This document shows positions 20,661-64,000 of a stretch of DNA of 64,000 nucleotides, one piece after another; position 1 is the stretch's first letter, and each line of letters opens with the position of its first letter. The notes below the pieces were generated by a model. It had not been told where the DNA came from. It worked only from the letters and a program-made list of their open reading frames with translations, and did no database searches. Source of the stretch: Mugil cephalus (taxonomy: Eukaryota; Chordata; Actinopteri; Mugiliformes; Mugilidae); NCBI RefSeq assembly GCF_022458985.1, contig NC_061781.1:12179501-12243500 (forward strand), in the 5' to 3' direction. Position numbers and translations under genes: made by a program.

Positions 20661-21680
20661 TCATGGCTCTGTTTTACATTTTGCTTTAGATCTGGAGCGT
20701 GTGTTGACATCAGACGACAAAGCCTGAGTGGACTCAGGAGAAGGAGGCCTGGAAAGTGGAACAAACAGAGGAGGTTTAACCACTTTGTCTTCAACCTCCT
20801 TGTTTTTATCTTTTTTCTGCCTCAAGTGTTTGTCACAGTGGTTCACAAAAGTGTCCAGCTTGACAAAGGTCTTGTTGCACACTTTGCAGTGATAAGGCCT
20901 CTGTCCCTTGTTGAGGCGTATGTGCAGCCTGATGTATGAAGATCGTACGAAGGTGCGGCAGCAGACCCCACATTTCAGATCCTCCATGCTGCTTTGGGTC
21001 TTCTGGGGTGGGCTCAGCGGGGGTGCAGGCACTGGTTTGGCCTCTCCGGACGCCTCCTGAGCCTTGTGCGAGAGCAAGAGTGGCAAAGAGCTAAAACCCT
21101 TGCCACATGTCTCGCATTTGTATGGCCTCTCCCCAGTGTGTAGACGAACGTGTGCCAGGAGCCCGGCCTTTTGGGTGAACGACTTGTCGCAGTAGGTGCA
21201 CTTGAAAGGCTTCTCACCTGTGTGGAGGCGACGGTGGGTCTTCAGATGCGAGGCGCGGCCGAAGGTCTTCCCACACTCTGGGCATTTAAATGGCCTATCT
21301 CCGCTATGAATTATTTTGTGTGCCATCAGGTGGGAGGACTGATGGAAGTACTTGCCACAGGTGCTACATCTAAATTTCCTCTCCTTGTTGTGCGAGGCCA
21401 GGTGAAGAGTCAGGTGGGCGGAGGAGATGAAGGTTTTGGTGCACAGGCTGCAGCTGTGAGGCTCCAGGCGCATGCGCCGGTGTGGCCTTCGACCATTACT
21501 ATGGGGGCTGCTGCCTTCCTGGCAGGAGGGGCATTTGGAAGGACTGTCATGCCCCTGTTTAGGAGCGACAGAGTGGTTGGAGGAATCAGGGTCAGAGTCG
21601 GGCTCTGGCAGGCTGAAGCTGCATCCACAGTCTGAGCAGTGCCCTGACTGCTGCACTTTGTCACCAGCTTTCTCCAGCAT
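20661..21680 (-). CDS. C2H2 zinc-finger protein, seven finger units
   Basis: A probable sequence-specific nuclear DNA-binding protein; I do not recognise an orthologue. The coding part sits in one exon whose acceptor is at 21734-21735; the first ATG in frame is at 21680, giving 339 residues. Seen: about 75 residues of acidic, Ser/Pro-rich leader containing two CxxC pairs (CSDCGC, CPSCQE); fingers [40 protein letters not shown] with TGEKPF-type linkers; then [20 protein letters not shown] and [10 protein letters not shown]. Finger 5 lacks a proper second histidine and finger 6 has Asn in place of its last histidine, so these two may not bind zinc normally. The tail is basic with a KAKCK motif. 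An upstream exon with a strong donor at 22187-22188 appears untranslated. The 5' half of this gene is copied as a broken fragment at 47836-48083. Confidence 0.85.
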
Positions 21681-21811
21681 GGTCCCCTGTAGGGCCAGAG
21701 CAGGGGAGGAGTTTTCATTCAGGACAGCAACATCTGGGAGGGAAAACAAATGATTATGAAATAGAGGCTAACGCTTTCAGACGTGCATTACGCAAAACAC
21801 ATCGCTCCTGC

Positions 21812-21862
21812 AGCGGCTGTGGCTCAGTAGAACCAGAGGGTTCGCGGTTTAAACCCCGGAAA
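21812..21862 (+). repeat. Degenerate tRNA-like (SINE) remnant
   Basis: GCGGCTGTGGCTCAGTAGAA followed by GGTTCGCGGTTTAAACCCC looks like the A- and B-box head of a tRNA-derived SINE with the middle lost. It cannot fold as a full tRNA. It is carried along in the duplication (near 48212). Confidence 0.35.
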
Positions 21863-22187
21863 ACAAGACTAGTGTTGTTACTTTTCCCTTTCTCATTAGC
21901 CAGCCAGCTTTGACACTTGACATCGTTGCCAGGCGTCATCGTGTCATTGTATCGTTTCCTGTTTACCGGCACAGTATTTTATCAGCCACGATCATGATAA
22001 ATCTCAGGCGATCACGCGCTTTGTGGCACCAACAGTCGGAGCAATCGCCGACACACAAATGTGAACGCCAGAGCTACACTAGCTTCCTTAGCATCGACAT
22101 CAGCCGCCCCTGCAGGCCCCGCTTCGCCCCACACAGTAACGCGTAAAGCATTTGAGGATGCGAGTCGTGAACAAAGATTTCACATAC

Positions 22188-22262
22188 CGTCTTCTTCCTT
22201 CCTAACAAGCGCATGTGCTCATCACAATGAAGCAAGTTTAAACGCACACAAAAACACAACAA
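22188..22262 (-). other. Probable untranslated first exon of the zinc-finger gene
   Basis: The minus strand reads GAAGAAGACG then gtatgtg, a strong donor. Joining it to the acceptor at 21734-21735 gives a frame with a stop and no ATG before the zinc-finger start, so the exon is probably leader only. Its 5' limit is not visible. Confidence 0.4.
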
Positions 22263-22503
22263 AGGGGTAGTTGTGTTCCGCCTGTGTCTCCCTGCAAGAC
22301 GCTGGGCCGGTGGTGGTGTGATTTAAACCGGGGCTGCAGCATCATCTAGCGAGCGGCGGAAAAACTGTCCTCTATGGAGAGGAAGAACCGAGTTTAACAG
22401 TGGGAAACTTATAAAAACCCGGTCTCTGGTTAGTTAAGGCTGCTCAGAAAGCTTAATTTTTTATTGAGAACTACTATCAGAAACATATCTCCGCTGTACG
22501 TTG

Positions 22504-22543
22504 AGTTTCGTTTTGTCAGAGGTGATACTCGAGAAACGAAACT
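22504..22543 (+). promoter_or_regulatory. Paired interferon-response-like (ISRE/IRF) sites upstream of sacsin-like copy A
   Basis: AGTTTCGTTTTG at 22504-22515 matches the ISRE pattern AGTTTCNNTTTC with one mismatch. GAAACGAAACT at 22533-22543 is an IRF-like site in the opposite orientation. Both sit 65-105 bases before a TATA box, the usual spacing in interferon-inducible promoters. The first site is conserved in copy B; the second is changed there. Confidence 0.5.
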
Positions 22544-22607
22544 AACATCACAAATACTAAGTCACAGGAACAGGCGTGTGCTGTTGGGATTGGACGTCAG
22601 CTGCCTT

Positions 22608-22613
22608 TATAAG
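22608..22613 (+). promoter_or_regulatory. TATA box of sacsin-like copy A
   Basis: TATAAG in a GC-rich setting, after a CRE-like GGACGTCAG and before a conserved stretch running to a strong donor at 22791/22792 (GGCAG then gtgagt). That would make about 22638-22791 an untranslated leader exon splicing to the acceptor before 25122. The same layout occurs in copy B. Confidence 0.5.
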
Positions 22614-22791
22614 CAGACTGAGCATCACTAGTTACAGTTGGACCGCTTCAACACTTCAGTTCATCATGACTTAGGTACTGTGATTTCACTTTTTTATATA
22701 TATATACATATACTCTTTTATTCTGCAATTATCAGTGAGTAAATGAACTTTCAGACTTTAACTTTAAGGGCCATTAATGGGGAAATGGCAG

Positions 22792-25121
22792 GTGAGTTTC
22801 TAGTTTTTAAAAAATCAGGGTCAAGTTTTTTTTTCCTTTCAAGGATGATCAGAGATGAAGGGGGCTATGAGCCTTTATAGTAAATATTATAAATTGGACA
22901 CAATGGTTAATATACAGCTTGTCTACCTAAATATAACAGTGTAGTATGAACATAATACACAAACATAACATTACAATGTCTAAAATCGCAGATGATCATA
23001 TCTATCTATATGATAATTTAGATCTCTTTTTCTTAATATGACATGTCAGTAAAGTGAGACTAGACCTGAACTAAACTGAGGTAAAAAGAAATTCTTCCAT
23101 TCACTGAAGGCTAATGACTGGTGGAAGTGTTAATCTAGCCTGGGTTGTTATTGGCATCAACGTAATCCGATCATTGTGATGTGACCTTAGGGTTTCTTAT
23201 TGAAATAGCCAAGAAACTGTAGCTTTTCATCTTTGTTTTTCCACACTGAACAATGCTTACCTATTCCTTGCTTATCATTCATCGTATTTATTTGTGTTTC
23301 CTGCTTCCAGAGAACTGATGCAGCAGTGTAGTTGTTTTGCTATGGTCTAAGAGGAAGTTTGTCAGTATGCCGAAACTCTTGTTGCTGCAATACTGTGGTT
23401 GCTTGTTCAATATGAAAAGCCTCAGGTGGGGCACAGAAATCTCGTTAAGATCACACTATTGTGAAAGTCTGAATATGAATCGAAATCTGAAAGAATAAAG
23501 AACACATGATATCCTTTAAATCTATTTAAAGAGGATATAAAATTTAATTGACAAGCAGTCTGGTCTATACCTTTTTATATACACTAGTGATTGGGACATA
23601 AACTGTTATAACTGATTTATGTTTGTGTATTGCACAATTTAATTGGTTAGTCTGTGACAGTTAGTGATGTAGACAAACTGCATGTAAACCCTGTCAAACC
23701 AGTCATACTGATGCATCAGTTGTCTGTACGTAACAGCAAACCAGAAAACATCAGTTAAGAAAAGATGACTAATATATTTTCCTTTAAGCATTATTATTAA
23801 ACTTTTAACATGTTCACTCTCATCTTTAAAGTTCCAGCAAAGTAATTCAAACAAGACATATCTCTTTCTAAATTTGTTGCAGTGATAAATCATAATTTTC
23901 CATCAATTGTTCAGTTTATTAGATATGTAAATCTTTTGACCTTATGTTGAAGACTAGCTAGTCAACAGGGATGTTCAGACAACATCAGGTGCCTGTCAGT
24001 TCAGTGCTCCTTTATTAGTCTCACTTTATCTGCCATTGCATCCTGCCAAGACTTTCTGTGACTGCATGTGATGTGATGGCTTTGTTGAGGCCTTGCCTCC
24101 ACACAATTCAACAAAAGGTTCATTACTTGAAGCTTTAAAAGAATAAAATAAATAACAGCCTCAGCGTGTATCAAACTCTTACTCCATCAACGTAAGACCA
24201 TCACTTTTACGATGTACCATGAGCCCCACATACCGTACCACCTTGTCGTTGAAGCTTTTTGATTTACATCGACACTACACAACTCTTTGCAAATTTATAC
24301 ACTTACATCCACTGTTTTCATTTGCTCTCAGTATCGGTTTAGTTGTGTAATAGAATATTTGTAGTGAATGCGTTAAAGTTAACGGACCAAAAAGAATATC
24401 AAACAGCACAAATCATGTTCAAAGCAAAAGATAATCAACAAGGGCATGTTTATTCAGAGGGAGGGAAGATATAGTTTAAGGGGATTGTTTTATTTTAAGA
24501 ATGTGAGAGTGTGAACAACAAGTAAAAGTTTTTGTGTATCTGTTTATGGTGTAAAACTTTGGAACGAGGTATGAGTGATGAACTGAAATAATATTCAAAC
24601 ATAGAGCAGATCAAGAAAAAGTATAAAAATATGATTTTAAAAAAGTACAAGGATGAGACTGGTTGTTCCTTTATTTATTTATTCTTCTCTTACCGATTAT
24701 TGGTTTTATTATAGCATTAGTAGTTTTTTCATCGTGGGATTATTATTTGCAAGTGGGTTAATTATTGATTACTTGTGTAAGGTGAAGGGGTGGGACTAGT
24801 TTCATCTTCCTCCAACTCCTTTTTGAACATGCAAAGGGCAAACTAGTTTGGCTCTTTGGTTGTTGTTGCTTTTTTACGTTTACTTTTGTCTTTATTTTGT
24901 TATATGTTTAATTATTTGTTCATGTTCAAAATGTAATAATAAATAAAAATGAAGTCTTTAAATTTTTGTGTGTGTGTGGGGGGGTAATTAAAAAAATAAA
25001 ATGAAAAATAAAAATAGTGAAAAACAAGTATACAAGTATATACATCACATAAAGTCTTATTAACTTCCATTTCAATTTATTTATTCTCTTATTATCTTTA
25101 AAAATATATATATATATACAG
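22792..25121 (+). other. Putative 5' intron of sacsin-like copy A
   Basis: AT-rich sequence without recognised genes lies between the inferred leader-exon donor and the acceptor (atatacag) just before the first coding exon. The equivalent region of copy B is interrupted by a Crypton-like fragment and a LINE fragment that are absent here. Confidence 0.4.
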
Positions 25122-25138
25122 CAACCAGCCCAGGAAGG

Positions 25139-28100
25139 ATGAGTCTGAAGACGAAGAAAAAAGCTCGGTGAGTTGTGTACTCCAGACTGTTTGTATCTTG
25201 TTCATCTTTTCCATTTGACTGTAATGACGGAAGGAATAGCTCCACCCTGATTTCTTCATAAATCTCTGCAATTGGCTTTTTTGCATTTTGTATGATACTT
25301 GAAACTGGTACTCAAACACATCTTCATCAAAGATCCACTTATCTGGATCTTTGTTGTCGTTGTTGACATGGAAATGATGTGTGTGCTGTCTGAAGTCTGA
25401 ACAACAAATCATAAACCTTAATTGTATTTACTGTAGTTTAGATTTGAAGAATTGCCATTTCAGACCAATTACATGTGAAAATATATAAAGTTATAAAACA
25501 AAAAGCCTGAGCTTGTATCAGTATTAGCATATACAGTAAGTGCTGTGTAGGGTTATCTAGTAGTTCATTTTTATTTAAGGCAGTGTTTGACCTTATGAGC
25601 TTATACTGTGCATCATCCCTTATGAGACCTTGTACTAAACATTTGTATTAACCTCAAGTACACATCTGTACAAACATCTGCACATGAATTTAACCATTTG
25701 TAGCCTGTTGATAATAATTAGCCAACTTTGTAAGATTCAAAGTTCATACCAAACATTTTATTGACCAGCATGATATTAACTATTTTCATACCAGGTATTA
25801 TCTAATTTTACATTCCAATAAATGTGCTTAGTGGCTCTTTGTGCCTCTTTGGTAGCTTCATGTTAATTTGAATTTCATCCTCTCTAATCCTTCTGCTTTG
25901 TTTAGGACTTCCTTCGGGGCCACAGCACCACCCTTCATTGACTACCTGAAAGATATTCTACGTCGATATCCAGATGGAGGACAGATTTTAAAGGTTGGTA
26001 TTATTTGCATCAAAAACAGCTTATATAATATCTTCCTCTTTTTTAATGACCCACATGTCTAACAGTATTATTCTTTTTGTATGACCTGCGTTGTCAATAA
26101 ACATGATGATTTATTCTTCCATATTCTGTCCTAAAAACAGGGAATTGACTTACATAATTATTTTATTGTTAAAAGTGTATTATTTCTGCTGCTGAAGGCA
26201 TAAAACAAAACATTAATGATGTGTTACATTTAACAAACACAACAATACTGTATGGACCTATCCATGGAGTAAAGGTGGACAACGTCTGGTGCAATGAATT
26301 CTTTGTACGTAGGTACTATTAACACAAAACCAAACAAGTGAATTATGTGTGTGTTTGTTGTTGCTTCAGTGGCCACAACCTTTACGAGAGAAATATCATT
26401 GGTGTTGAAGGGTTAGGAATGTACAGTCAGTAGTCCTTATTCAACTGGGGGCCTGTTAAAGTCTAACTGCTTGTGTGTTCTTTTGCTGTTTGTGTGACAG
26501 TATTGTCCATGCTCAACAATCTTTTTAGCTTTGTTTGATTTTATCTTGTATCCAAAATGCATTTAAAAAAGGGAACTTGACTTGAAGATTTTTTAGAAGA
26601 CAGTTTTTTAAGTGTGTTTTGGATGTACCATTACCTGGATGATGAACAATCTAACCACTCTGGCACAGTATATAAAATAGTGTAACAGTATATAAAATAT
26701 AATGCAGTTCAATTTAAAACTATAAACTACATTAAGAAATAGACATGACAGATGAATAAATGGTTTAGCGTGGGTTAGTTGAGTGAGTCAGTTGCATGCT
26801 AAGGTTGGGTGGCTGCCCCTTATCTGTAGGGTGTGATAAACACTGTGTTTTATTTTTGTATAGATGTCTCACTAACCTACCCCATATATTGCTCCATTGC
26901 TGGACTTTCATCAAAGCTGTCCAAACGATTATGTTGCAAGTATAGATAGAGAAATCTAGTGCCACTCCCTGCCAGTTTGTGACCTGAGGCCCATTTCACA
27001 AAGCAGGTTTAGTGAAAACTCTGAGTTTATTAACCCTGAAATTAGGGAAACCTTGAGTTTTCCATTTCACAAAGGGAGGTAACTCAAACCAGAGAAAGCG
27101 GGGAAACTCTAGCCTGTTTCACAGAGAGAGGTAACTTAAGCTTTAGTCAGTTACCCGAGTAACAGACTCCATAAACCTAACCCAGTCAGGACCAGGTTTA
27201 AGTCAATGAGTCTCTCTGTCTCCACCCTCTTTCAGCCACACATGCCATTTGATTTCCTCTTTTATTCAGTCAGTCAGCAGGCGAGTTTGGCGTAGTCTTG
27301 TTCTGCTGTGAGAAATCATTAAAAAAATCAGTCAGTAGCTATATCAGAAGTCCATTAGACACAGTAGGAGGAGACTTTTTTCACGAACATGGCATGTCCT
27401 TTTGACAACGACCCTGTGGATGAAGGTGCAGCATTACTGCACAGAGAACTAAATATTCGTCGGGAGATGATTATCAGACTGCGCATAGATGTTTAGACTA
27501 TCTTTTTGAGCGGTACCATCAGAATCTGTTGGGACAAAAGAAAAAAAAGACATAAAAGACAAATAAATATTTGTATGAATGGGCTTAAAAAGGATATCTA
27601 TAGGCCTATTACATTTTATAAAGGCACTTGGACTCAGAGGATGAGCTCCCTCCAGGGATTCCCACAGCCACTGGCCTTCAATATTCTGGCTAAGGACCAG
27701 CTCCTCTGCCTCCGTTAGAGGTGGCGGTGCTGGGCCACCACCTGTTTTACAGGCATCTGCCTTCTTTTTTTTGGCTGAGTAGAAGTCTGTGTTAGTTTAA
27801 ACAGGCGTAATTATTTAACAGAACATGATATAGATGAGAAAACATTTATGTGTGTGAAAACAGCATTATGTTGGGGATAAAACAACTGCACAGTCCAGTA
27901 GCCACTTAATATTTACTTTAAAGTGTAAAACTTGATCAAAGTGAGGTACCTCCATGCCAAGGTCTTACCTGTTTGAACAATGTTTTTATATTTCATCTTA
28001 AGCTGCTGCCAAGTGGGCTTCTCCCCCGCGGGATTGCACCTATGAAATAAATGATAAATAAAGAGGTTACTATTCAAGCAGTTTTCCCCATTAATATTAT

Positions 28101-31100
28101 TTAGATATATACATTTATACATTTAAACTTATGCACTGACCCGAGCAGCGATGTTCTCCCACGTCGTCTCCCTCTCTTCTTTTTAAAAATGTGTTGAAAC
28201 TCGCCGTATTAGCGCATTAGGATTTCCACTTCATAGCCCTCTTCCTCCCCGTTGCCACGGTGAATCGTCGAATCGGGGCTCCATTGATGCTGGCTTTTTA
28301 TAATTGTGGCGCATGCGCTTAACTCTGGATGAAACTACTCCAAGTTGATTAAACCAACTCAAATCCGCTGTTCTGGAACTGGAAACTCAGTTTTCTAACT
28401 CAGAGAAGATCAACTCAGAGTTTAGGATCAGACTCAGAGTTTGTTGAACCTGCTTTGTGAAACGAACCCCTGGAATAACCTAGAGAAGAATCTAAATCCT
28501 GACGGATCTCTGTCCCTATGCTAAAAGTGTAATTGTCCTTGGTCACGTTTATTGGTTTTGTTCTTCTGGCTGATTCTTTTATTATTGTGCACATGTACTT
28601 TTGTGTTGTTTATATTGTCAATTTCTTGGTGCTTAGTAGAGGTTTCTTAGTGCAGTATAAAGTTGTTGTTATTGCTACAATATATACAGAGCAAAATCAA
28701 GGCCATAATGTAATAAATGTGTTAAAAGGTTTGGTGTGTGTGTGTGTGTGCGTGCGCGCATGTTTGTGCTGATGGAGGCAACAGCTCAGTAAGGGAAAGA
28801 GCTGCTCTTCAGTCCGTAATGTTTATTCCACCCAGTCCCAGTATATCTGGTTCTCAGCAGTTAAGCTGGATCACAGTACCAGTGGCAGGAAGATGGCTAT
28901 GACGTGTCATAACTGCTTGTCTGTTAACGGCTATTGTCTCCATTTGTCAACAGGAACTGATTCAAAATGCAGACGATGCTCTAGCCACAGACGTGGTTTT
29001 CATACATGATGAAAGAAGCTATGGGACTGAGAGTCTTTGGACTGAGGAACTGGGAAAATACCAAGGTAATGATAATGTTTAGTGGATAACAACGTTATTT
29101 TTTTCAACTATTGTTATTCATGTCTTTGTTTTCCAAAAATGATAAACTGAGCAAATAGAATGTATCTCATGTTCATAGTAAAAAAAGTTGTCAAAATACC
29201 AATTCAACATTTTATATGGAGAGATTCTGGGAGAAATTCCCATATGTCTATTGATTCTGTATCCAGCCTAATTTTTATCTTCAAAATACTTTATTTTGTT
29301 TTTTCAAAGGTCCAGCTCTCTATGCCTACAACAACGCAGCGTTCACTGATGACGACTGGAAAGGGATTCAGAGTGCAGGAAGGAGCATCAAACGCAATGA
29401 CCCAAACAAAGTTGGGAGATTTGGAATCGGCTTCAACTCTGTTTACCACACAACAGGTGAAACCATGTATACCTACCACATACACATCTACTGTATAATA
29501 GTGTTAAATTATCATTCTTTGGTAACATGTAAAATAAAATTAATCAGACAGTACTTGATTTTCATCCACAGATGTGCCAAGTATATTCAGTTCAGGACAC
29601 CTTGGGTTTCTGGACCCCCAAGAAAAGACATTTGGAGAAGGAAAAGGAGGGTTCCTGTGGTCTTTGGATGATGACGAACACCAAGAAGTTCTAATGAACA
29701 TGCATGATCAGTTCCAACCCTTTCGAGATATCGTTTCACTTGTAAGCGAACAAGAATGGTCAAAGGTTGTCATGGAGGATCAAAAATTTGACGGGACCAT
29801 TTTCAGATTCCCATTACGCAAAGAAACATCAGAAATTTCAGATAATCTTTATGACTCAGATAGGGTGGTTGAACTTTTTGACAGCTTCATTGCAGATGCA
29901 GACTTAAGCCTCCTCTTCTTGAAAAATGTGACATCTGTGTCCTTATTACATGTTAATGTAGATGGCATTGTCACCACCAGACTTGAAGTGAAATCCTCAG
30001 TCTGCACAGAAGTGGTTCTGGAGTCAGAAGAAGAGTCAGTTATCGAGAGTGAGACACGATTCAAAGTGATAACTCTCAATTCAGAAAACCACAAAGAAAC
30101 AAAATGGCTTGTGACAACGTGTACCATGAAAGAGGGCAAAGTGGAGGAGCTTGATTCTCTTGCAGAAAAGTTGAGCTTTTTACCTCGAGTTGACTTGGCA
30201 TTTGCTTGTGGTGAGAAGAGAGACTGTAGTGAGAGTAGACTGAGCTGCTTCCTCCCACTCCCAAACAATGACTCCAACAAGACAGGTCTGCCAGTTTATG
30301 TCAATGCATGCTTTGGCCTCACAGACAATAGAAGACAAATCAAGTGGCAAGAGGAGGATCAGAAACACGATGACCACGCTCTGTGGAATGAATTGTTGAT
30401 GAAGGAAGTGCTCCCTCGCACATACATCATGATCATTAAAGATGCCATCCAACTTGCCAAAGAATCTATCTTCCCAGTCTCTTTCGTGTACAATCTGTGG
30501 CCAGACATTGCCCAGGTACAACACAAGGACAAATGGTATGATGTTGCTCTGGATGTTTTTCGTCATGTATTCACAAAGAATGTGGCCATCCTGTCCCTTG
30601 CCAAAAACGAAAGACAATTTATCACTGCAGCAGAAGCTGTGTTCCCTTGTAATGATCCAACAAACATTGACATACTGTCTGCCATTGAAAGGACTTTGGT
30701 TTCCTGTGGAGAAAATCTTGTGACTCTACCAGCCAGTGCTACAAGGGCTATAAATGAAGCCTATCCATATCCAGATACGTTAACATATGTGACGCCAACC
30801 TTCTTCAGGGACATTCTCCACAGCACTGGAGTACATAACTTGAGCAAAGATGACAAACTCTGTCTTTTAGAGTACATTTTGAGTGATGGAAAATACGAAG
30901 AACTCGAGGGCCTTCAGCTGCTTCCACTCAGCGATGGTTCTTTCATATCTTTCACAAACAGAGAGGAGGACACTGCTTTAATTGACAGCATGGAATTTCC
31001 AAGGTAGGGTTTAATTTATCTGTTGTGTGACTATTACCTGATCATGAGAATTAAAGAAAATTATTTATATAGGTGCCAAGTTGTCAGTGGTTGTCTTTTG

Positions 31101-47400: not shown

Positions 47401-47520
47401 AAGGTGTCAATATAATTCTTATATAATCCTACAAAAAATATTTGGAAAATAAACTTTACCAAAATAAAAAGGTAGTCATGTTTGGCAGTTAAAAAACATT
47501 TATTTTCACTGTAAGGCACA

Positions 47521-47740: not shown

Positions 47741-47835
47741 TATGGTTACAAAGTGCATGACTCGTCTCACTCAACCAAAACGTCAAGCCAAACGTACCGT
47801 TTACTGCCGTTTCTCACTTTCTATGTTACAGTTTT

Positions 47836-49942: not shown

Positions 49943-50191
49943 TTATTGCAAGAAAGATGAACTTCTAATTTCTTTAAGTTCCGACTCAGGGATACGAGGC
50001 TGGTGGAAGCTGGTGTCTTTCCCACTCTTCCTGTAGCGCTTCAGCATCGCCTTGAAAACAGCATTACTTGTCTTGAACACCGTGTTGCTAATGACGTTTA
50101 CGCCTCTTAAGTGGCGATTACCTCTCGGGTAATATTGCTTAATTAATGCACAATTTAATTCATAAGTCAACAAAAAAATAACAGGCACCAA
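49943..50191 (-). mobile_element. Crypton-type tyrosine recombinase fragment
   Basis: The minus strand encodes about 80 residues with GNRHLRGVNVISN, FKTSNAVFKAMLKRYRKSGK and DTSFHQPRIPESELKEI. This resembles the start of the recombinase-like domain of vertebrate Crypton-derived proteins (the KIAA1958/QRICH1 type). No catalytic part is present. The segment is absent from the matching place in copy A. The family call rests on pattern memory. Confidence 0.5.
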
Positions 50192-50984: not shown

Positions 50985-51310
50985 GATTGCGTCTAGCTGC
51001 TACATCGTCTTAAATTGGCCATGTGGTTTGACACGTCCGTCCGTCAACTCCAAAAGGGCTAAAGCTCTTAATGTCCTCGCCCGATCTTATTTATCTATGC
51101 CCAGGTCAAAACTTAAACACTGGGGGCATCAAGCCTTCTCAGCTGCTGCACCCAGGCTCTGGAATAAGCTCCTTACTGACATGTGTCTTATTATTATTTT
51201 AGTGTCCAGTAGTGTGGTGACATTATTTATTATTAATTTTATTATTTATTTTTTAAATCTTGTTTTATTCACTTGTTTCACCTGTGGGTTGTTGTAAAGT
51301 GCTTTATATA
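50985..51310 (+). mobile_element. 3' end of a LINE (non-LTR) element
   Basis: A short plus-strand frame includes LNVLARSYLSMP and WGHQAFSAAAPRLWNKLLTD, the usual end of fish LINE reverse-transcriptase proteins. It is followed by a T-rich tail and TTGTAAAGTGCTTTATATAA, a typical LINE 3' end. This is a 5'-truncated insertion, absent from copy A. Confidence 0.75.
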
Positions 51311-52205
51311 AAAAATGTACATTTACATTTACTTCTGGTTATCGTTTGCTTCAGTTAGATTATCATGGGCCTGCATAGGAAATGTAATGCTTCTTCCTCT
51401 TCAAACAAAAAAAAAACAAAAAAGCACAATAGTAGGAAGTATATGGTTTAAACATACTATTTTAAGGAGGATATGCAAATCACTTCACATTCTGTATGGT
51501 TCTCTAGTTTCAGCATATTTAACCTACTGTACTGAGGTATGAGGTAACACTTTCTCTATGGTACAATATAAATTCTTCAAAAAAGAGCAGTTAGGGTCAA
51601 TAACAGAGTAGGTTATAGGATCACACACACCTGTTTTTTATTTCTTTAGTCAAAACAGTCAAAAAGTTCAAGGACCAAATAGACTATCAAACAGCACAAA
51701 TCACGTTCAAAGCAAAAAATAATCAACTACCAGGAAATATTCAGGGCATGTTTATTCAGAGGGAGGGAAGATATAGTTTAAGGGGATTGTTTTATTTTAA
51801 GAATGTGAAAGTGGGAACAACAAGGAAAAGATATTGTGTGTCTGTTTATTTGCAAGTGGGTTAATTATTGATTACTTGTGTAAGTTGAAGGGGTGGGACT
51901 AGTTTCTACTTCCTCCTACTCCTTTTTGAACATGCAAAGGGCAAACTAATTTGCCTCTTTGGTAGTTGATGTATTTTTTAATGTTGTCTTTATTTTGTTA
52001 TATGTTTAATTATTTGTTCAGGTTGAACATAAAAAAAAATATAATAGTAAATAAAAATGAAGTCTTAAATAAAAAATAAAAAAATAAATAAAAATAAAAA
52101 TAGTGAACAAATGTATATATACATCACATAAAATTGTATTAATTTCCATTTCAATGTTTTTATTCTCTTTATTCTGACTCTCATACAGTAACCAGCCCAG
52201 GAAGG

Positions 52206-54724
52206 ATGAGTCTGAAGACGAAGAAAAAAGCTCGGTGAGTTGTGTACTCCAGACTGTTTGTGTCTTGTTCATCTTTTCCATTTGACTGTAATGACGGAAG
52301 GAATAGCTCCACCCTGATTTCTTCATAAATCTCTGCAATTGGCTTTTTTGCATTTTATATGCTACTTGAAACTGGTACTCAAACACATCTTCATCAAAAA
52401 TCCACTTATCTGGATCTTTGTTGTCGTTGTTGACATGGAAATGATGTGTGTGCTGTCTGAAGTCTGAACAACAAATCATAAACCTTAATTGTATTTACTG
52501 TAGTTTAGATTTGAGAATTGCCATTTCAGACCAATTACATGTGAAAATATATAAAGTTATAAAACAAAAAGCCTGAGCTTGTATCAGTATTAGCATATAC
52601 AGTAAGTGCTGTGTAGGGTTATCTAGTAGTTCATTTTAATTTAAGGCAGTGTTTGACCTTATGAGCTTATACTGTGCATCATCCCTTATGAGACCTTGTA
52701 CTAAACATTTGTATTAACCTCAAGTACACATCTGTTCAAATATCTGCACATGAATTTAACCATTTGTAGCCTGTAAAAAATAATTAGCCAACTTTGTAAG
52801 ATTCACAATTCATACCATTTTATTGACCAGCATGATGTTATCTATTATCATAACAGGTATTATCTAATTTTACAGTCCAATATATGTGCTTAGTGGCTCT
52901 TTGTGCCTCTTTGGTAGCTCTCTAATCCTTCTGCTTTGTTTAGGACTTCCTTCGGGGCCACAGCACCACCCTTCATTGACTACCTGAAAGATATTCTACG
53001 TCGATATCCAGATGGAGGACAGATTTTAAAGGTTGGTATTATTTGCATCAAAAACAGCTTATATAATATCTTCTTCTTTTTTTTTAATGACACAAATGTC
53101 TAACAGTATTATTCTTTTTGTATGAACTGCGTTGTCAATAAACATGATGATTTATTCTTCCATATTCTGTCCTAAAAACAGGGAATTGACTTACATAATT
53201 ATTTTATTGTTAAAAGTGTATTATTTCTGCTGCTGAAGGCATAAAACAAAACATTAAGGATGTGTTACATTTAACAAACACAACAATACTGTATGGACCT
53301 ATCCATGGAGTAAAGGTGGACAACGTCTGGTGCAATGAATTCTTTGTACGTAGGTACTATTAACACAAAACCAAACAAGTGAATTATGTGTGTGTTTGTC
53401 GTTGCTTCAGTGACCACAACCTTTACGAGAGAAATATCATTGGTGTTGAAGGGTTAGGAATGCACAGTCAGTAGTCCTTATTCAACTGGGGGCCTGTTAA
53501 AGTCTAACTGCTTGTGGACTTTCATCAAAGCTGTCCGAATGAGCAGATTGTGTTGCAGGTATAGATAGAGAAATCTAGTGCCACTCCCTGCCACTTTGTG
53601 ACCTGAGGCCCGTTTCACAAAGCAGGTTTAGTGAAAACTCTGAGTTAATTAACCCTGAAATGAGGGAAACTCTGAGTTTTCCATTTCACAAAGGGAGGTA
53701 ACTCAAACCAGAGAAAGCGGGGAAACTCTAGCCTGTTTCATAGAGAGAGGTAACTTAAGCTCTAGTCAGTTACCCGAGTAACAGACTCCATAAACCTAAC
53801 CCAGTCAGGACCAGGTTTTAGTCAATGAACCTCGGATTTCTCTCTGTCTCCACCCTCTTTCAGCCACACATGCCATTTGATTTCCTCTTTTATTCAGTCA
53901 GTCAGCAGGCGAGTTTGGCGTAGTCTTGTTCTGCTGTGAGAAATCATTAAAAAAATCAGTCAGTAGCTATTTCAGAAGTCCATTAGACACAGTAGGAGGA
54001 GACTTTTTTCACGAACATGGCATGTCCTTTTGACAACGACCCCGTGGATGAAGGTGCAGCATTACTGCACAGAGAACTAAATATTCGTCGGGAGATGGTT
54101 ATCAGACTGCGCATAGATGTTTTAACATTTAACAACTATCTTTTTGAGCAGTACCATCAGAATCTGTTTGGACAAAAGAAAAAAAAGACATAAAAGACAA
54201 ATAAATATTTGTATGAATGGGCTCAGAGGATGAGCTCCCTCCAGGGATTTCCACTTCATAGCCCTCTTCCTCCCCGTTGCCACGGTGAAAATCGAATCGG
54301 GCTACATTAATGCTGGCTTCTTATAGTTGTGGCGCATGCGCTTAACTCTGGATGAAACTACTCCGAGTTGATTAAACCAACTCAAATCCGCTGTTCTGGA
54401 ACCGGAAACTCAGAGTTTTCTAACTCAGAGAAGATCAACTCAGAGTTTAGGATCAGACTCAGAGTTTGTTGAACCTGCTTTGTGAAACGAACCCCTGGAA
54501 TAACCTAGAGAAGAATCTAAATCCTGACGGATCTCTGTCCCTATGCTAAAATTGTAATTGTCCTTGGGCACGTTTATTGTTTTTTTTTTTCAGGTTAATT
54601 CTTTTATTATTGTACACATGTACTTTTGTGTTGTTTTTATTGTCAATTTCTTGGTGCTTAGTAGCAGTTTCAGAGTACAGAGCAAAATCAAAGCCATAAT
54701 GTAATAAATGTGTTAAAAGGTTTG

Positions 54725-54755
<31 letters not shown>

Positions 54756-57700
54756 TGTGTGTGCGTGTGCGCACATGTTTGTGCTGATGGAGGCAACAGC
54801 TCAGTAAAGGAAAGAGCTGCTCTTCAGTCCGTTATGTTTATTCCACCCAGTCCCAGTATATCTGGTTCTCAGCAGTTAAGCTGGATCACAGTGGCAGGAA
54901 GCTTGCTATGACGTGTCATAACTGCTTGTCTGTTAATGGCTGTCATCTCCATTTGTCAACAGGAACTGATTCAAAATGCAGATGATGCTCAAGCCACGGA
55001 CGTGGTTTTCATACATGATGAAAGAAGCTACGGGACTGAGAGTCTTTGGACTGAGGAACTGGGAAAATACCAAGGTAATGATAATGTTTAGTGGATAACG
55101 ACATTATTTTTTTCAAGTAATGTTATTCATGTCTTTGTTTTCCAAAAATGATAAACTGAGCAACTAGAATGTATCTCATGTTCATAGTAAAAAAAGTTGT
55201 TGTCAAAATACCAATTTAACATTTTATATAGAGAGCTTCTGGGAGAAATTCCCATATGTCTATTGATTCTGTTTCCAGTCTCATTTTTATCTTACAACAT
55301 ACCTGATACCGGAGTCACTTATCTTCAAAATACTTTATTTTGTTTTTTCAAAGGTCCAGCTCTCTATGCCTACAACAACGCAGCGTTCACTGATGACGAC
55401 TGGAAAGGGATTCAGAGTGCAGGAAGGAGCATCAAACGCAATGACCCAAACAAAGTTGGGAGATTTGGAATCGGCTTCAACTCTGTTTATCACACAACAG
55501 GTGAAACCATGTATACCAACCACATACACATCTACTGTATAATAGTGTTAAATTATCATTCTTTAGTAACATGTACAATAAAATTAATCAGACAGTACTT
55601 GATGTTCATCCACAGATGTGCCAAGTATATTCAGTTCAGGACACCTTGGGTTTCTGGACCCCCAAGAAAAGACATTTGGAGAAGGAAAAGGAGGGTTCCT
55701 GTGGTCTTTGGATGATGACGAACACCAAGAAGTTCTAATGAACATGCATGACCAGTTCCAACCCTTTCGAGATATCGTTTCGCTTGTAAGTGAACAAGAA
55801 TGGTCAAAGGTTGTCATGGAGGATCAGAAATTTGACGGGACCATTTTCAGATTCCCATTACGCAAAGAAACATCAGAAATTTCAGATAATCTTTATGACT
55901 CAGATAGGGTGGTTGAACTTTTTGATAGCTTCATTGCAGATGCAGACTTAAGCCTCCTCTTCTTGAAAAACGTGACCTCTGTGTCCTTATTACATGTTAA
56001 TGTAGATGGCATTGTCACCACCAGACTTGAAGTGAAATCCTCAGTCTGCACAAAAGAGGTTCTGGAGTCAGAAGAAGAGTCAGTTATCGAGAGTGAGACA
56101 CGATTCAAAGTGATAGCTCTCAATTCAGAAAACCACAAAGAAACAAAATGGCTTGTGACAACGTGTACCATGAAAGAGGGAAAAGTGGAGGAGCTTGATT
56201 CCCTTGCAGAAAAGTTGAGCTTTTTACCTCGAGTTGACTTGGCATTTGCTTGTGGTGAGAAGAGAGACTGTAGCGAGAGTAGACTGAGCTGCTTCCTCCC
56301 CCTCCCAAACAATGACTCCAACAAGACAGGTCTGCCAGTTTATGTCAATGCATGCTTTGGCCTCACAGACAATAGAAGACAAATCAAGTGGCAAGAGGAG
56401 GATCAGAAACATGATGACCACGCTCTGTGGAATGAATTGTTGATGAAGGAAGTGCTCCCTCGCGCATACATCATGATCATTAAAGATGCCATCCAACTTG
56501 CCAAAGAATCTATCTTCCCAGTCTCTTCTGTGTACAATCTGTGGCCGGACATCGCCCAGGTACAACACAAGGACAAATGGTATGATGTTGCTCTGGATGT
56601 TTTTCGTCATGTATTCACACAGAATGTGGCCATCCTGTCCCTTGCCAAAAATGAAAGACAATTCATCACTCCAGCAGAAGCCGTGTTCCCTTGTAATGAT
56701 CCAACAAGCATTGACATACTGTCTGTCATTGAAAGGACTTTGATTTCCTGTGGAGAAAATCTTGTGACTCTACCAGCCAGTGCTACAAGGGCTATAAATG
56801 AAGCCTATCCATATCCAGATACGTTAACATATGTGACGCCAACCTTCTTCAGGGACATTCTCCGCAGCACTGGAGTACATACCTTGAGCAAAGATGACAA
56901 ACTCTGTCTTTTAGAGTACATTTTGAGTGATGGAAAATCAACCAATCAACCAATTTAACATTTTATATAGAGAGCTTCTGGGAGAAATTCCCATATGTCT
57001 ATTGATTCTGTTTCCAGTCTCATTTTTATCTTACAACATACCTGATACCGGAGTCACTTATCTTCAAAATACTTTATTTTGTTTTTTCAAAGGTCCAGCT
57101 CTCTATGCCTACAACAACGCAGCGTTCACTGATGACGACTGGAAAGGGATTCAGAGTGCAGGAAGGAGCATCAAACGCAATGACCCAAACAAAGTTGGGA
57201 GATTTGGAATCGGCTTCAACTCTGTTTATCACACAACAGGTGAAACCATGTATACCAACCACATACACATCTACTGTATAATAGTGTTAAATTATCATTC
57301 TTTAGTAACATGTACAATAAAATTAATCAGACAGTACTTGATGTTCATCCACAGATGTGCCAAGTATATTCAGTTCAGGACACCTTGGGTTTCTGGACCC
57401 CCAAGAAAAGACATTTGGAGAAGGAAAAGGAGGGTTCCTGTGGTCTTTGGATGATGACGAACACCAAGAAGTTCTAATGAACATGCATGACCAGTTCCAA
57501 CTCTGTCTTTTAGAGTACATTTTGAGTGATGGAAAATCAACCAATCAACCAATGAGTGATGGAAAATACGAAGAACTCGAGGGCCTTCAGCTGCTTCCAC
57601 TCAGCGATGGTTCTTTCATATCTTTCACAAACAGAGAGGAGGACACTGCTTTAATTGACAGCATCGAATTTCCAAGGTAGGTTTTAATTTATCTGTTGTG

Positions 57701-60700
57701 TGACTATTACCTGATCATGAGAATTAAAGAAAATTACTTATATAGGTGCCAAATTGTCAGTGGTTGTCTTTTGTGAAATGTATTAATGAACAAACTTATC
57801 TTTGCTGCAGAATATTGCTGCCAAACTGTAAACACCTCTTCATCCCACGTGATCTCAGTTCAGCCTGTAGTGCCCATCTGAAACAAGTGGCCAGAAAAAG
57901 TAGGTCATGGTCAATTTCAAGGTTATTTTCATGTGCCATATGCAAGTGTAGACACTATGAACACATATTTATTTTATTTATTTATTTAAATCCCAAATAT
58001 CTGTTCTTTTAGATTTATTCATGGTCATCAACGTTGACGCAGACCACGTGGCTGAATACACAAGAAGGCATATGCCCCAGGACTGGAAGCAGACGGGGAC
58101 AGCATTTGTTACATGGGACATCAGCAACAGTCAGCATCCACCATTAGACTGGATTCAAGAGCTCTGGAAGTTTCTCAACACACACTTCAGTGAGTTAAGT
58201 CATTTCACTGAACTACCTATAATACCAGTCAGTCCTCTGTCTGTCAGTCAGCCTGTAATTCTAGCAAAGCTACAACACAACACAACCATGATTTTTCAGA
58301 AAAACAAGCAGGGTAGTTTACCAGACCAAATAGCCCAACTGGTGACCAGAGTTGGAGGCACAGTAGTGAGAGGAAACCAGTGGCTCAAGCACCAAGACCT
58401 TGACTCCTATGTACTGTGTCCATCTCCGAGGAGTGTCATGGTGGTCTTGATGAATTTAGATACCCAGCATCTCATCAGAGAACTCAAAACTGTGTCTGAC
58501 AGAGCAAGAAAGGAACTGAAAGATTACCTCTCTTACCTGGATTCTCTCTCAGGCCAAGAGAAAGATTTGCTCTCAAAGTTGCCTCTGTTTCAAACCATGA
58601 AAGGATTCTGTGTTGCAGCTGAATACAAAAAAGCTGTGCTTGTAACATCTGCCCCGACAATACCAAAAGAGCTCCCTATGCCTGATTCAGTCATCCAGTG
58701 TGCAACTGAGGCAGATCGCAGGTTGTTACAGCTGCTAAAAGTTAATCTCTTGGACACAGCAGCAGCTGCCAATGTTCTCATTGACTGTATTGAGATGGGG
58801 GCTTGCAGCACTGAAGACACTCAGAAAATAATGACCTGGATTTTACAGCATGGTAATATCCTTTTCTCTCAAAATCAGTCGGTGAAGCACAGATGCAAGG
58901 ACTTGAGCTTCATCGAAATAAACGGAGAGCTGAAAAAGACCTCAAGCTTTTTTGATCCAAGAATTCAAAGTTTTAAAGTCATATTTGAGTCAGACTTCTT
59001 CCCCCCATCTTTATACACTCGGACACAGCAGATGCTAGAAAGCCTAACTGATCTTGGATTAATAAATAAAGAAGTGGATGTGTCACCTGAACACTTGTTG
59101 CATGCTGCCACACTTATTGAGAAACTGCATGGGGACTCTGAAACCGAGGCTCTCAAAAGAGCTGAGGTTCTCTTGGAGATGCTGGATGGTAATGATCTGC
59201 TGTCTAGATTTTCTCGTAAGCAGCTTCAACATCTTAAAATGCTAAAATGGCTACCATGTGATCAACCCGATAAGGACAAAAGTCAATTCAGTAATGAATC
59301 TCGGAAAAGGTGTTTCTTCTGCCCAGACGAAGTAAGACATTCTGTGTATGAGGACATTGTTGGACATGTAATGCCTCTAGTTGGAAAGCTCACTGACAGA
59401 GTTAGCATCAAACTTGACTTCAAACGTCTACCTCCGCCTGAAAAAGTGATTGAGAATTTGACATTCTTGACATCAAAAGCAGAAGAAATGGTTGATCCTG
59501 ATACAAATGTGGATTTCAAAAGAAAGTTGCACAGCATTTACAAACACATGGAAGAAAACATCTCTGCATTTGAAACCGTGATGAACAATAAGACACGCTG
59601 GCTGTGGGCACAAAACCATTTCGTTTCACCACAGGATCTGGTTCTTGACTATCCACGTGATCTGGATCTGAGTTCTTACATTGGGATAGTGCCAAAAGAA
59701 TTTTTGCCATACAAGAAGTTGCTCCAGAAGTTTGGCCTGAGATCATTTCTTTCAAATGAAGAAATTGTTGGTATTCTTCACACTATCCAGCAATCAATTG
59801 AAGCAAGGCAAGAGCCATTTGCTAGTTCCTCTGAGGTAAAAGTGTCAATAGAAATTCTCAACTGGTTGTGGAGAGAGAAGAAGACCGTAGAGGATGACAT
59901 CCCAGTGCCTGTCATCATAGAGGGAGAAAGATTTACTCTTAAACCATGTTCAACAGCAGTCTTCTGTGATGTAAGCAAAAATGGGCTGAAAGAACTCGAA
60001 TATAGCCCAGAAGAAATTTATGTAACTCATGACGAAATCCTAAAAGCAACAGCTGAATGGTTGAATATTCAATTTCTCAGCACCTACATCCTCGATCCAG
60101 AGCTAGTGGGGATTGAACAGTGTGGACAATCTGAACCAATAACAATGAGGATTAAAAATATTCTGAAAGAGTATGATGAAGAAAGTGACATCTTCAAAGA
60201 GCTCGTTCAAAACGCAGAGGATGCTGGGGCAGATGTCTGTAAATTCTTGGTGGATTTACGAGTACACAAATATGCCCCTGAAAGTCTCATTGACCCTGAC
60301 ATGGCTCTTTGTCAGGGTCCTTGTCTTTGGGCTTTTAATAATGAGCAGTTCAAAGCTGAGGATTGGGCAAATATTGTCAGAGTTGGCGCTGCTTCAAAAG
60401 AAACCAAAGTAGAGAAAATTGGAAAGTTTGGACTTGGATTTAATACTGTGTATCATTTAACAGATGTCCCCTCCATCCTCAGTGGCAACCATCTTCTCAT
60501 ACTGGATCCAAATGTTACTCACCTTAAAAAGCACATCAAAATCAAAACTAATCCTGGAATCAAGCTGAATCTTTCCCAGCAGCAACTGTTTAATTGTTTT
60601 CCAGGCCAGTTTGGACCATATGAAGGAATTTTTGACTGCAATTTCACTAGTCAAAGTCATGAATCTTATCGAGGCACTCTGATCAAGCTACCTTTCCGAA

Positions 60701-63700
60701 CTGAAGAAGAGGCTCTCAAGTCAGAAATAAGCCAAAGGGTGCATCACACACGTGATATCATTGCTCTTCAACAGCATTTTACTGAGAATTCACAAACTCA
60801 CCTCCTTTTTCTGAAGAAAATGAAAGCATTATCCCTTCTAAATATTTCAAAGGGTGCATCAACTCCACCAAAAGGTGATGAAACAGAAAATGTCCTCACT
60901 GTCTCTAAAACCGTTATGAGCACAATGATGGTTACTGATGAAACCAGTGTGTCAAAGCAGTGTCAAGCTGAAAAATCACTGATGACAGCTGATGGTAAAT
61001 GCAAGGAGATAATAAACTGCTGCACAATCAACATTGTCCAAATAACCAGTGAGCAGTCTGGAGTAACAGAAGTCCAGTCCTGGCTCCTGTACAACTGCTT
61101 TGGGACAGATCAGTCATTGAAAATGGCCCTTGAAGAAAACAGCCATGCCAAGTTTTCTTTGCCGATTGGTGGGATTGCTGTGCCCTTGCAAAATAATCCA
61201 GACACTGGAAAACTGGCCTCATTACAAACACATCTTGTTGGACAAGTGTTTTGCTTCCTCCCTCTTCCTATTCACACAGGTCTTCCAGTCAATGTAAATG
61301 GAACATTTGCTGTGACAAGCAACCGAAAAGGTCTATGGGAAAGTGGAGTGAAAAATGACTGGAACAAAGCACTCCTCCAGGATCCTGTAGTGACCGCATA
61401 TATTACTGCACTCTTGGCACTAAAAGAAATGTCTGAAGACAAACAGCTGGAGACCTACTGTTATCACACATTTTGGCCTGACAGGGAGAAAGTGAGTGAA
61501 ACTTTCAAGCCACTGGTGGATGCATTTTATATTGCCATTGCTCAACAGTCCACTGGCCCAGAACTCTTTAGTGATGGAGAAAGCTGGTGCTCAATGAATA
61601 ATGCCATATTTTTACATGAGACCATTGACGAGAATGAAGACATCAGTGCCCTTGCAGCACAGGTATGCAAGAAATATGCAGAAGAATCCAATCATGTTGT
61701 CCCACTTCCACGGTGGGTGAGAAACAACTTCAAGCTGGCAGGCCTGGGTGAGGTTTTACAAAACAGGACCTGGAACTGGGAGAAGTTTTACAGAGAAGCA
61801 GTGTTCAATAATCTTAGTACCATGGACCCCCAGAGTAGAAATACTCTTGTGCTGCATGCTATTGACCTTCACATCACAGAAATTGACAATCTGTTGGTCC
61901 GCTATCCATGCATACCGACACAAGATGGACAGCTGCAATACATCCGGAAACTAGTGAATCCATCAGGGAAGGTGGCTTGTCTTTTCGAACCAGGCGAGGG
62001 ACGCTTGCTTGGTGGGACAGAGAATGACTTTTGTGCTCCCAGAAGGATTCAACGCTTATTGGAACTTGGAATGACAAATGATCATCTCCCACTGGATGAC
62101 ATCACAGAGAAAGCAAGAACAATAACTAAAACCTGGAATACCAACAAAGAGAAAGCATATGTGCATTTGAAGTGCCTACTTGAGCTTATGAGGTATCACA
62201 TGCTTGAGACAGATTCTTGTCACTGGGAAACACTGAGGATGACTGCATTTCTCCCAGCATTTCCCCCTGGTGATACAAATAAGGACGGAAATGTAACACT
62301 TAAAATGCCCACTGAAGTTTTTAGTGACAAATGCTCCCTACTTGTTAACATGACACGACCTGTGCTGGATCACCTCAGTCTGAAAATACACTACACTGAT
62401 CCACTCCTGCAAGTTTTGGGAGTTAAGAGCAGTCCAGAGCCGAGGACGGTGATTCGCCAGCTGCAAGAAGCATCTAAGCAATCTCAATCCACTGATATAT
62501 CCATGCTTCACAACATAGCAAATGAATGCTATAAGTTTCTAGATCAGTGGGTCAGTGATTCTGGGAATTCCACTTTCATTTCACAGTGTGCACGTTCATT
62601 CCCATTCATCTTTGTTGGTAATACATTTGTAAATGTCAACCGCGTAGCTGAAAGTGAGCAACTCAAAGCAAAGCCCTATCTCCATGTACTTCCGCCTGCC
62701 TTTACTATTTACAGAAGTCTTTGGAAAAGTGCAGGTGTTACAAAGAAATTTACAGTCCTTCAGTTTCGAAGTGTGCTCCAAGAACTGCATACTCAACATG
62801 GAAGCAAGCCACTGCCACAAACAGATCTATCAATTTGCCTCACAATTTTAAACAATGGGATTTATGAGGCCAAAGAGGAAACAACGGGTGACTGGCTGAT
62901 ACCCAATGAGCAAGGGGTCTTACAACCTGCAACTGAGCTGTTTTACAATGACAGCCCATGGATACCAGTCACTAAAGATATCACACTGTGTCACAAAAAT
63001 ATCCCACGTCCAATGGCTCACCACTTTGGAATCAAAACAACCAGACATCATACTCTGGACAACTGTGTAGCTGACAACATTTCACCATTTAGTTTTGAGT
63101 TTGAACAGAAGGAACAACTCAGTGTTAGAATAAAAAACATAATTTCAGCTTATCCATCAAAGAAAGATATCCTTAAAGAGTTAATCCAAAATGCAGATGA
63201 TGCAGAGGCAACAGAAATTCACTTTGTTTGGGACAAACGAGAGCATGGAAAAGAAAAAACATTTGGGGAGAAATGGAACCCCCTTCAAGGTCCAGCACTG
63301 TGTGTGTTCAACAATAAAGTGTTTTCTGATGCCGACTTGAACGGCATTCAACAGCTAGGAGAAGGAGGAAAACACAACTCTCCAGGGAAGATAGGAAAAT
63401 ATGGAGTTGGATTCAACTCTGTTTACCATCTGACTGATTGCCCTTCAATCCTCACTGGTGATCAAATCCTTTGCATTTCTGACCCCAATCAAAAATACAT
63501 TGAAAGTCATTCAGACAAACCACCAGCTGGAATTGGCTATAACCTAGATGACAGATTTAAGGCAACGTACATAGATGTCTACAAATCCTTCCTTCCAGAC
63601 ATCTTTTCTCTTAAAGAGGGCACCATGTTTAGATTACCCCTGAGGATGGGCACCAGTGCAAACTGTTCCAAAATATCAAAAGAAGGAGTGACTGACCGTG

Positions 63701-64000
63701 ACATGAAAGAGCTGTGCTCTGCCCTGTCTGAAGATCCTGAAGGACTAATTTGTTTCTGAAAAACATCTGTAAAATAAAAGTCCATGAAATTGATGAACAA
63801 TCAGGAAAACTTAAAATCATCTATGAGGTCGAAAAAAGTCTTCCACAAGAGAGCAAGGAAGAAAAAGATGGTTTTATAAAATGTCTACAAAATGCCGTAC
63901 AATCTGGCATGACGGTGACCCCCAAAAAGACTTTTTATGAAGTCATGATTTCCACCTCAGATGAAACACAAAGTAAATGGATTGTTGCAGAACAGTTTGG
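52206..64000 (+). CDS. Sacsin-like giant GHKL protein, copy B (partial, rearranged)
   Basis: The second copy of the gene at 25139, cut by the window edge inside the third sacsin repeat. Exons 1-4: 52206-52234, 52944-53031, 54963-55074 and 55354-55500. Exon 5 starts at 55616 but runs into inserted sequence and a stop at 56958. A second exon 4 (57093-57239) and a shortened exon 5 (57355-57676) follow, then exon 6 (57811-57899) and exon 7 from 58013. Splicing exon 3 straight to the second exon 4 would keep frame and lose about 370 residues, so a shortened protein is possible. In exon 7 a T-run is one base shorter than in copy A (near 63750), which gives a stop at 63759. Where copy A lost a base at its C-run, copy B is in frame. 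N-boxes and G2 boxes are conserved. Whether it is functional is open. Confidence 0.75.
53606..54494 (+). mobile_element. Shorter Harbinger copy in intron 2 of copy B
   Basis: Same insertion site, CTG flanks and ends as the element in copy A. About 560 internal bases, including the Myb/SANT-like part, are missing. The deletion joins at a GGATT shared by both sides in copy A. The transposase start reads slightly further here ([11 protein letters not shown]) than in A. Confidence 0.8.
54724..54772. repeat. (GT)n microsatellite, copy B
   Basis: A GT run with a few interruptions, longer than its counterpart in copy A. Confidence 0.85.
56950..57553 (+). repeat. Local duplication of intron 3 end, exon 4 and parts of exon 5 in copy B
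   Basis: 56950-57500 repeats 55211-55761, and 57501-57553 repeats 56902-56954. The two source blocks are 1.1 kb apart in exon 5 but are fused in the repeat. Both junctions carry the added stretch TCAACCAATCAACC, which is absent from copy A. It looks like a tandem duplication followed by an in-frame internal deletion, or template switching. Confidence 0.8.

Follow-up and report, generated by a model that had tools for sequence, protein, structure and literature searches.

Tandem sacsin paralogues in Mugil cephalus and their possible role in the response to viruses

A tandemly triplicated sacsin-like gene

The window analyzed here is a stretch of 64,000 bp from Mugil cephalus contig NC_061781.1 (C12; positions 12,179,501-12,243,500), part of a searched genome of 635 Mb on 24 contigs. 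It contains the first two copies (A and B) of a giant, tandemly repeated gene with the domain architecture of sacsin, referred to below as sacs-like. Positions are those of the window unless a contig is named. An initial sequence-only reading had described a tandem pair of near-identical genes about 26.4 kb apart. In a self-BLAST of the window the repeat unit began at 21432 and again at 47836, a spacing of 26,404 bp, and the large exons of the two copies (30880-37327 aligned with 57553-64000) were 98.5% identical. The tandem arrangement was borne out, but the pair had to be replaced by a triplet, because one further unit (C) lies to the right of the window at C12 ~12,251,400-12,277,500 (71899-98026 on the window scale).

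The three SACS/GHKL repeats per copy that had been read from the sequence were recovered in A and B as SACS matches; the weakest single exon scored E 1.2e-5, and the best match scored E 8.9e-84. The J domain and HEPN domain proposed for copy A were also found, the former as a DnaJ match below the Pfam cut-off in which the HPD could be read. In copy C, the equivalent segments matched the human sacsin J domain (1iur; E 1.3e-15; HPD read from the translation) and the human sacsin HEPN domain (3o10; E 1.2e-22). Copy C was intact, with a giant exon open for 3,709 amino acids and a repeat-1 exon open for 482 amino acids. The small exon at the start of repeat 1 (25906-25993 in A) was recovered in both A and C when the true-sacs exon was used as a phmmer query (E 1.1e-12).

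The junction between units A and B was identical in sequence to that between B and C, and a C2H2 zinc-finger gene encoded on the opposite strand has the duplication breakpoint in its coding exon, with its 5' end copied into B and C. The recurrence of one junction and the copied zinc-finger 5' end are accounted for by repeated unequal crossing-over. Substitutions between A and B were unevenly spread over successive fifths of the giant exon (48, 35, 4, 2, and 14), which suggests gene conversion.

Table 1. Features of the tandem locus, in window positions
Feature	Position	Strand	Remarks
C2H2 zinc-finger gene	20664..21767	-	Pfam zf-C2H2; coding exon contains the breakpoint
Tandem unit A with sacs-like copy A	21432..47835	+	26.4 kb; self-BLAST; common junction A/B and B/C
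ISRE-like site GAAAGGGAAA	21883..21892	-	In the best conserved stretch of the unit; again at 48287-48296 and also in C
Copy A exon, start of repeat 1	25906..25993	+	B and C equivalents align
Copy A exon, N-box of repeat 1 (ELIQNADDA)	28951..29065	+	Start approximate
Copy A exon, G1/G2-type boxes of repeat 1 (GPALYAYNN ...)	29310..29456	+	End approximate
Copy A exon, remainder of repeat 1	29562..31004	+	482-aa frame, same length in C; splice ends approximate
Copy A giant exon (repeats 2 and 3, J, HEPN)	31320..42251	+	Open in pieces, five 1-bp frameshifts; ends approximate
Copy A SACS/GHKL repeat 1 matches	28951-29070, 29303-29455, 29562-29960	+	Split over exons
Copy A SACS/GHKL repeat 2	33460..34200	+	PF25794, E 8.9e-84
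Copy A SACS/GHKL repeat 3	36435..37148	+	PF25794, E 1.8e-83
Copy A J domain	41568..41687	+	HPD intact; PF00226, E 0.0002, below Pfam cut-off
Copy A HEPN domain	41859..42250	+	PF05168; TQYPNCH at the place of sacsin TRYPDLL
Tandem unit B	47836..64000	+	Extends ~7.9 kb past the window end; unit C next
Copy B repeat-1 exons	54960..56958	+	Last exon broken by an inserted self-copy (~56955-57553)
Copy B SACS/GHKL repeat 1 matches	54960-55082, 55347-55499, 55612-56004	+	
Copy B giant exon	57961..63759	+	Until the 1-bp frameshift at 63748
Copy B SACS/GHKL repeat 2	60133..60873	+	
Copy B SACS/GHKL repeat 3	63109..63810	+	Frameshift inside

The 5' end of the zinc-finger gene and its upstream region (21432-22098, 47836-48502, and the equivalent in unit C) were 98.5 to 98.8% identical between units, compared to ~83 to 94% in the adjoining blocks. 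This difference suggests a shared or converted bidirectional promoter. Farther to the left, at 4598-17260, are look-alikes of SON (minus strand), ERCC1, and PRMT2, which were named by eye; Pfam support in this flank was restricted to SH3 and weak methyltransferase domains, and the ERCC1 and SON pieces had no Pfam match. Rfam and tRNA scans of the 64-kb window gave no matches.

Relationship to the true sacs gene

A whole-genome protein search identified a diverged relative on a second contig (C9), with a giant exon open for 3,859 amino acids, as the true sacs gene. Its ubiquitin-like domain (Ubl) was detected when the peptides of two exons were joined (PF00240; E 1.3e-7), its repeat 1 was 82% identical to that of human and lizard, and its HEPN domain shared 118 of 132 residues with the human domain, compared to 49 of 132 for copy C. 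A sarcoglycan gene (PF04790) adjoins it at C9:23,642,026-23,642,445, which fits the human arrangement, in which SACS lies beside SGCG. Another neighbor was named TNFRSF19-like by eye; it had no Pfam match. In a census of the genome, all 21 scored SACS candidates fell in four genes, A, B, C, and the C9 sacs gene, as did all 4 HEPN matches that reached E 0.1 or better among 10 scored candidates; these counts are lower bounds (at least 21 and at least 4).

It is scarcely conceivable that the tandem gene is simply the sacs gene of this species, recently multiplied. The full sacsin architecture of the copies would be expected in that case, but a separate gene on C9 has the Ubl, the sarcoglycan neighbor, and the high repeat-1 identity to human. 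The possibility that the tandem gene is the only sacs gene was refuted by the protein search and the census, and the distinction from true sacsin drawn in the sequence-only reading was upheld. By architecture the tandem genes belong to the sacsin family as full-length paralogues; they are not sacs orthologues, a place filled by the C9 gene.

Identity between copy C and true sacs was 37% over the repeat-1 exon and 54, 45, and 47% over repeats 1, 2, and 3, respectively. In both A and C, each of the three repeats has kept the ATP-site motifs KEL[IL]QNA[DE]DA, GPxLxx[YF]NN, and G[RK][FY]GxGFN[ST]VYH. No Ubl was detectable in A or C when the C9 Ubl was compared with 383 translated segments between the start of each unit and the last repeat-1 exon (best E 1.9), and in the same search three neighboring exons were recovered as positive controls (E 1e-12 to 1e-21). 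Because the first coding exon or exons of the sacs-like genes were not located, this result means that there is no detectable Ubl.

The HEPN domains of copy C and C9 sacs shared 51 of 133 residues. Where human and C9 sacsin read TRYPDLL, all three tandem copies have TQYPNCH, so that Gln replaces the Arg of RYPD. The Rx4-6H motif of HEPN RNases, as given in the accessible part of PMC3710099 (the papers cited here were accessible in part, and what is said of them applies to those parts), does not occur in this segment of the three copies; we infer that the RYPD Arg is the R of that motif. These findings bear on the possibility that the GHKL repeats act as sensors that switch on an RNA-cutting HEPN domain, in the manner of RNase L or bacterial HEPN toxins. 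The copies do have a HEPN domain, HEPN domains recur in defense, the sacsin HEPN has been proposed to act on RNA (PMC3710099), and a His stands five residues on (QYPNCH), so that activity is still conceivable. However, the Arg is Gln in all three copies, and human sacsin itself is reported to be without the conserved motif (PMC3710099). Thus, an RNase effector appears quite improbable, and a function of this domain as an immune RNase was not supported.

In a tree of 11 repeats, every repeat of the sacs-like protein paired with its counterpart in sacs, which implies that the whole protein was duplicated. Fish sacs repeat 1 clustered with that of human and lizard (support, 94/94 with 11 rows and 95/94 with 9 rows), and an origin of sacs-like within fish only was weakly rejected (approximately unbiased [AU] test, p 0.046); sacs repeat 1 was represented by three species only, so that long-branch pull is possible. 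It seems from this tree that sacs and sacs-like separated before fish and tetrapods did, although long branches could mislead the tree. The term "lineage-specific" used in the sequence-only reading therefore suits the recent tandem amplification but apparently not the split itself.

Between A and C, the ratio of nonsynonymous to synonymous substitution rates (dN/dS) was 0.505 (191 synonymous and 365 nonsynonymous changes in 3,620 codons; Nei-Gojobori method on three sequences, with codon columns containing gaps, stops, or inserted bases omitted), and it climbed to 0.88 in one 1.1-kb window. Amino acid changes were fewer than expected under neutrality at every transition/transversion ratio kappa tried (p 3e-6 at kappa 2 and 0.01 at kappa 5); noncoding transitions and transversions between A and C numbered 96 and 106. 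With three units, the same junction twice, and a dN/dS of ~0.5, the description of an amplifying family was appropriate.

Integrity of copies A and B

The giant exon of copy A contains five 1-bp frameshifts (at 35589, 37364, 39883, 41140, and 41975) and that of copy B contains seven, of which only the one at 63748 is inside the window. Relative to C, none of these 12 frameshifts was common to A and B, and 10 of the 12 lay in runs of at least three equal bases, as read by eye. In addition, the repeat-1 exon of B is interrupted by an insertion of ~0.6 kb that duplicates B's own 55210-55762 with 100% identity in the self-BLAST. This 553-bp self-copy (55210-55762 = 56949-57501) is accompanied by a 55-bp flanking duplication and represents either a recent event or an assembly artifact.

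It is unlikely, in our view, that C is the one real gene and that A and B are either pseudogenes or haplotypes placed in tandem by the assembly. Such an origin would account for the twelve private frameshifts and for the self-copy that splits the repeat-1 exon of B, and it would agree with the marginal evidence for purifying selection when A and B are compared only with each other (p 0.032 for a kappa of 2, 0.08 to 0.18 for a kappa of 3 to 5). A 2.3-kb 3' noncoding block without any 1-bp indel between A and B also argues slightly against a uniform error rate. However, all 12 coding indels between A and B were of 1 bp, compared to 6 of 25 in four noncoding blocks (Fisher p 1e-5), and in the two near-identical fifths of the giant exon indels and substitutions stood at 8:6, versus 6:188 (counting one-base indels) in noncoding sequence (p 1e-7). 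None of the 94 private changes was a nonsense codon (P 0.019 and 0.035 for kappa values of 2 and 5, respectively). Larger coding length differences relative to C were multiples of three in 6 of 6 cases, versus 9 of 24 in noncoding comparisons of A and C. Noncoding differences between A and B of 1.7 to 4.9% are high for alleles, and the identity of the A/B and B/C junctions also speaks against such an origin. The indel spectrum, the ratio of indels to substitutions, and the absence of nonsense codons favor consensus errors in near-identical copies over natural decay as the source of the 12 frameshifts, although this is not proven.

Viral induction and homology to bacterial TmtA

Fish virology papers, in their accessible parts, tend to explain an induced "sacsin" by the function of the neuronal co-chaperone. 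In lumpfish, poly(I:C) was reported to increase expression of sacs-like and to repress sacs (PMC11357929). Of the two lumpfish primer pairs, the one for sacs-like aligned to copy A, once spliced, with 2 + 2 mismatches and a predicted product of 111 bp, equal to the published one, compared to 4 and 6 mismatches at their best C9 matches. The lumpfish sacs primers fit the C9 gene with 2 + 3 mismatches and a product of 102 bp, again as published, and their best C12 matches, with 5 and 4 mismatches, were at unrelated places. SAC_MGB2 is a published marker of viral disease in Atlantic salmon (PMC5499884). Its peptides VHQAVEK and VAAEYRR correspond to VHQAVEK and VAAEYKR in the sacs-like HEPN domain, as opposed to KCYLATK and IAADYAV in the C9 protein. 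This mapping suggests that the induced gene in lumpfish is the sacs-like paralogue rather than true sacs, which was repressed there, and that in salmon, less firmly, it is probably the sacs-like paralogue as well. Virus-induced "sacsin" or "sacsin-like" genes have also been published, and are comparable by name only, in trout, cod, sea bass, sole, and grouper.

These data also bear on whether the paralogue could be a subfunctionalized stress or neuronal sacsin that shares proteostasis with true sacs, its viral induction being a side effect of stress. The two genes have the same architecture, the chaperone motifs are intact, and sacsin or sacsin-like genes appear in studies of heat, metal, and other stresses among the matches listed. 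The opposite responses of the two lumpfish genes to poly(I:C), and growth in copy number with a dN/dS of ~0.5, in contrast to true sacs, whose repeat 1 is 82% identical between fish and human, make this division of labor rather unlikely.

The repeats are also homologous to a bacterial protein, TmtA, which belongs to the Tiamat anti-phage system. In PADLOC, only TmtA models were matched, by 8 of 8 matches for repeats 2 and 3 and C9 repeat 3, 5 of 5 for the repeat-1 exon, and 1 of 1 for the sequence that joins repeat 1 to repeat 2, with E-values down to 1.9e-47; the J-HEPN part had no defense match in PADLOC or NCBIfam. Conversely, Pfam SACS matched TmtA of a Calothrix plasmid (L021:5920-10230; TmtA E 4.5e-289) with E 3.5e-29 and TmtA of a contig from the IMG/VR viral collection (L022:2899-6699), whose frame exceeds the fetched stretch, with E 4.6e-64. 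The viral-collection protein aligned with sacs-like repeat 3 and its tail over 1,050 columns (26% identity; E 2.9e-56), and the alignments of the Calothrix protein were shorter. In the SACS domain, the viral-collection protein was 31 to 37% identical to the fish repeats, compared to 33 to 39% among different fish repeats. A weak phage-integrase match adjoins this gene. From these alignments, sacsin looks like a series of three TmtA-like units followed by J-HEPN. Tiamat is listed among largely uncharacterized defense systems (PMC12926258).

It is possible, although our doubts outweigh our confidence, that sacsins are three TmtA-like anti-phage units fused to J-HEPN, that fish amplify a Ubl-less, fast-evolving, interferon-induced antiviral sacsin, and that human neuronal sacsin is its domesticated sister. 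If so, one bacterial defense fold would serve both phage immunity and vertebrate antiviral immunity. The homology to TmtA opens a common origin with bacterial anti-phage defense to testing. Among the matches listed in a literature search without preprints and most subscription papers, none named both sacsin and Tiamat; a wider search listed papers on HEPN, AbiA, or death-domain systems among others. Among the matches listed, the paper that used the term "sacsin-like" most concerns corals.

On balance, we lean toward the reading that A and B, together with C, make up a tandem triplet of sacsin paralogues encoding an interferon- or virus-induced effector that acts as a giant, ATP-driven chaperone scaffold. 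Its starting points are the observed domain architecture, separate true sacs gene, lack of a Ubl signal, copy number, evolutionary rate, and TmtA homology of the repeats. A defensive role, which the sequence-only reading had raised as a possibility, fits the published induction by virus or poly(I:C) in other fish, attributed to the paralogue through the lumpfish primers and, with less confidence, through the salmon peptides. Once induced by interferon or virus, the protein could clamp clients with its three Hsp90-like modules, and the J domain could pass them to Hsp70. The HEPN domain lacks the canonical catalytic Arg and might dimerize or bind nucleotide or RNA without cutting. Loss of the Ubl, through which neuronal sacsin is linked to protein degradation, would free the protein from that link, and the tandem units would grow and homogenize by unequal crossing-over and gene conversion.

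Several points weigh against this interpretation. The salmon marker fits poorly at the DNA level: its forward primer differs from each of the three copies at 5 positions, and only unrelated sites with 7 mismatches were found for the probe and the reverse primer. A sea bream "sacs" gene was reported as unchanged by nodavirus (PMC11207047). This assay may have measured true sacs instead of the virus-induced paralogue: the reverse primer fits true sacs (3 mismatches), but the forward one has 7 mismatches at the expected place and 6 at unrelated places, and the predicted product is 103 bp compared to 124 bp reported. Induction in M. cephalus is carried over from other fish by primer similarity, and the chaperone mechanism is inferred from sacsin. 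The ISRE-like site (for interferon-stimulated response element), which lies near the zinc-finger gene and has a chance expectation of ~0.06 sites in 667 bp at the window-wide rate, is a lead only and could be due to chance. A very divergent N-terminal domain may be encoded by the 5' coding exon or exons that were not located. Finally, homology to TmtA is equally strong for true sacs, so that this link alone does not mark the paralogue as defensive.

The closest known systems include the sacsin-like genes of fish virus studies. DNA matches and product length place the assay for lumpfish XM_034562115 on the sacs-like paralogue, the salmon SACS biomarker maps to it by peptide, and trout LOC110505631, another "sacsin-like" gene from a virus study, can be grouped with them by name only; the accessible parts of these reports do not describe a tandem paralogue without a Ubl. 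In sponges, sacsin-like proteins that carry DEATH domains are likewise sacsin paralogues proposed to act in immunity or cell death (PMC3710099); unlike them, the fish copies had no DEATH domain match in the pieces scanned. TmtA shares with sacsins the SACS/GHKL domain and most of one repeat of ~1,000 residues, but it has one SACS module rather than three, and the Calothrix protein had no J or HEPN match. Sacsin itself (human, lizard, and C9) has the same three ordered SACS/GHKL repeats, J domain with HPD, and C-terminal HEPN domain as the sacs-like proteins, which differ in having no detectable Ubl, Gln for the RYPD Arg, and 37 to 55% identity by region. Unlike sacs, the sacs-like genes form three tandem copies on another contig, with other neighbors and a dN/dS of ~0.5.

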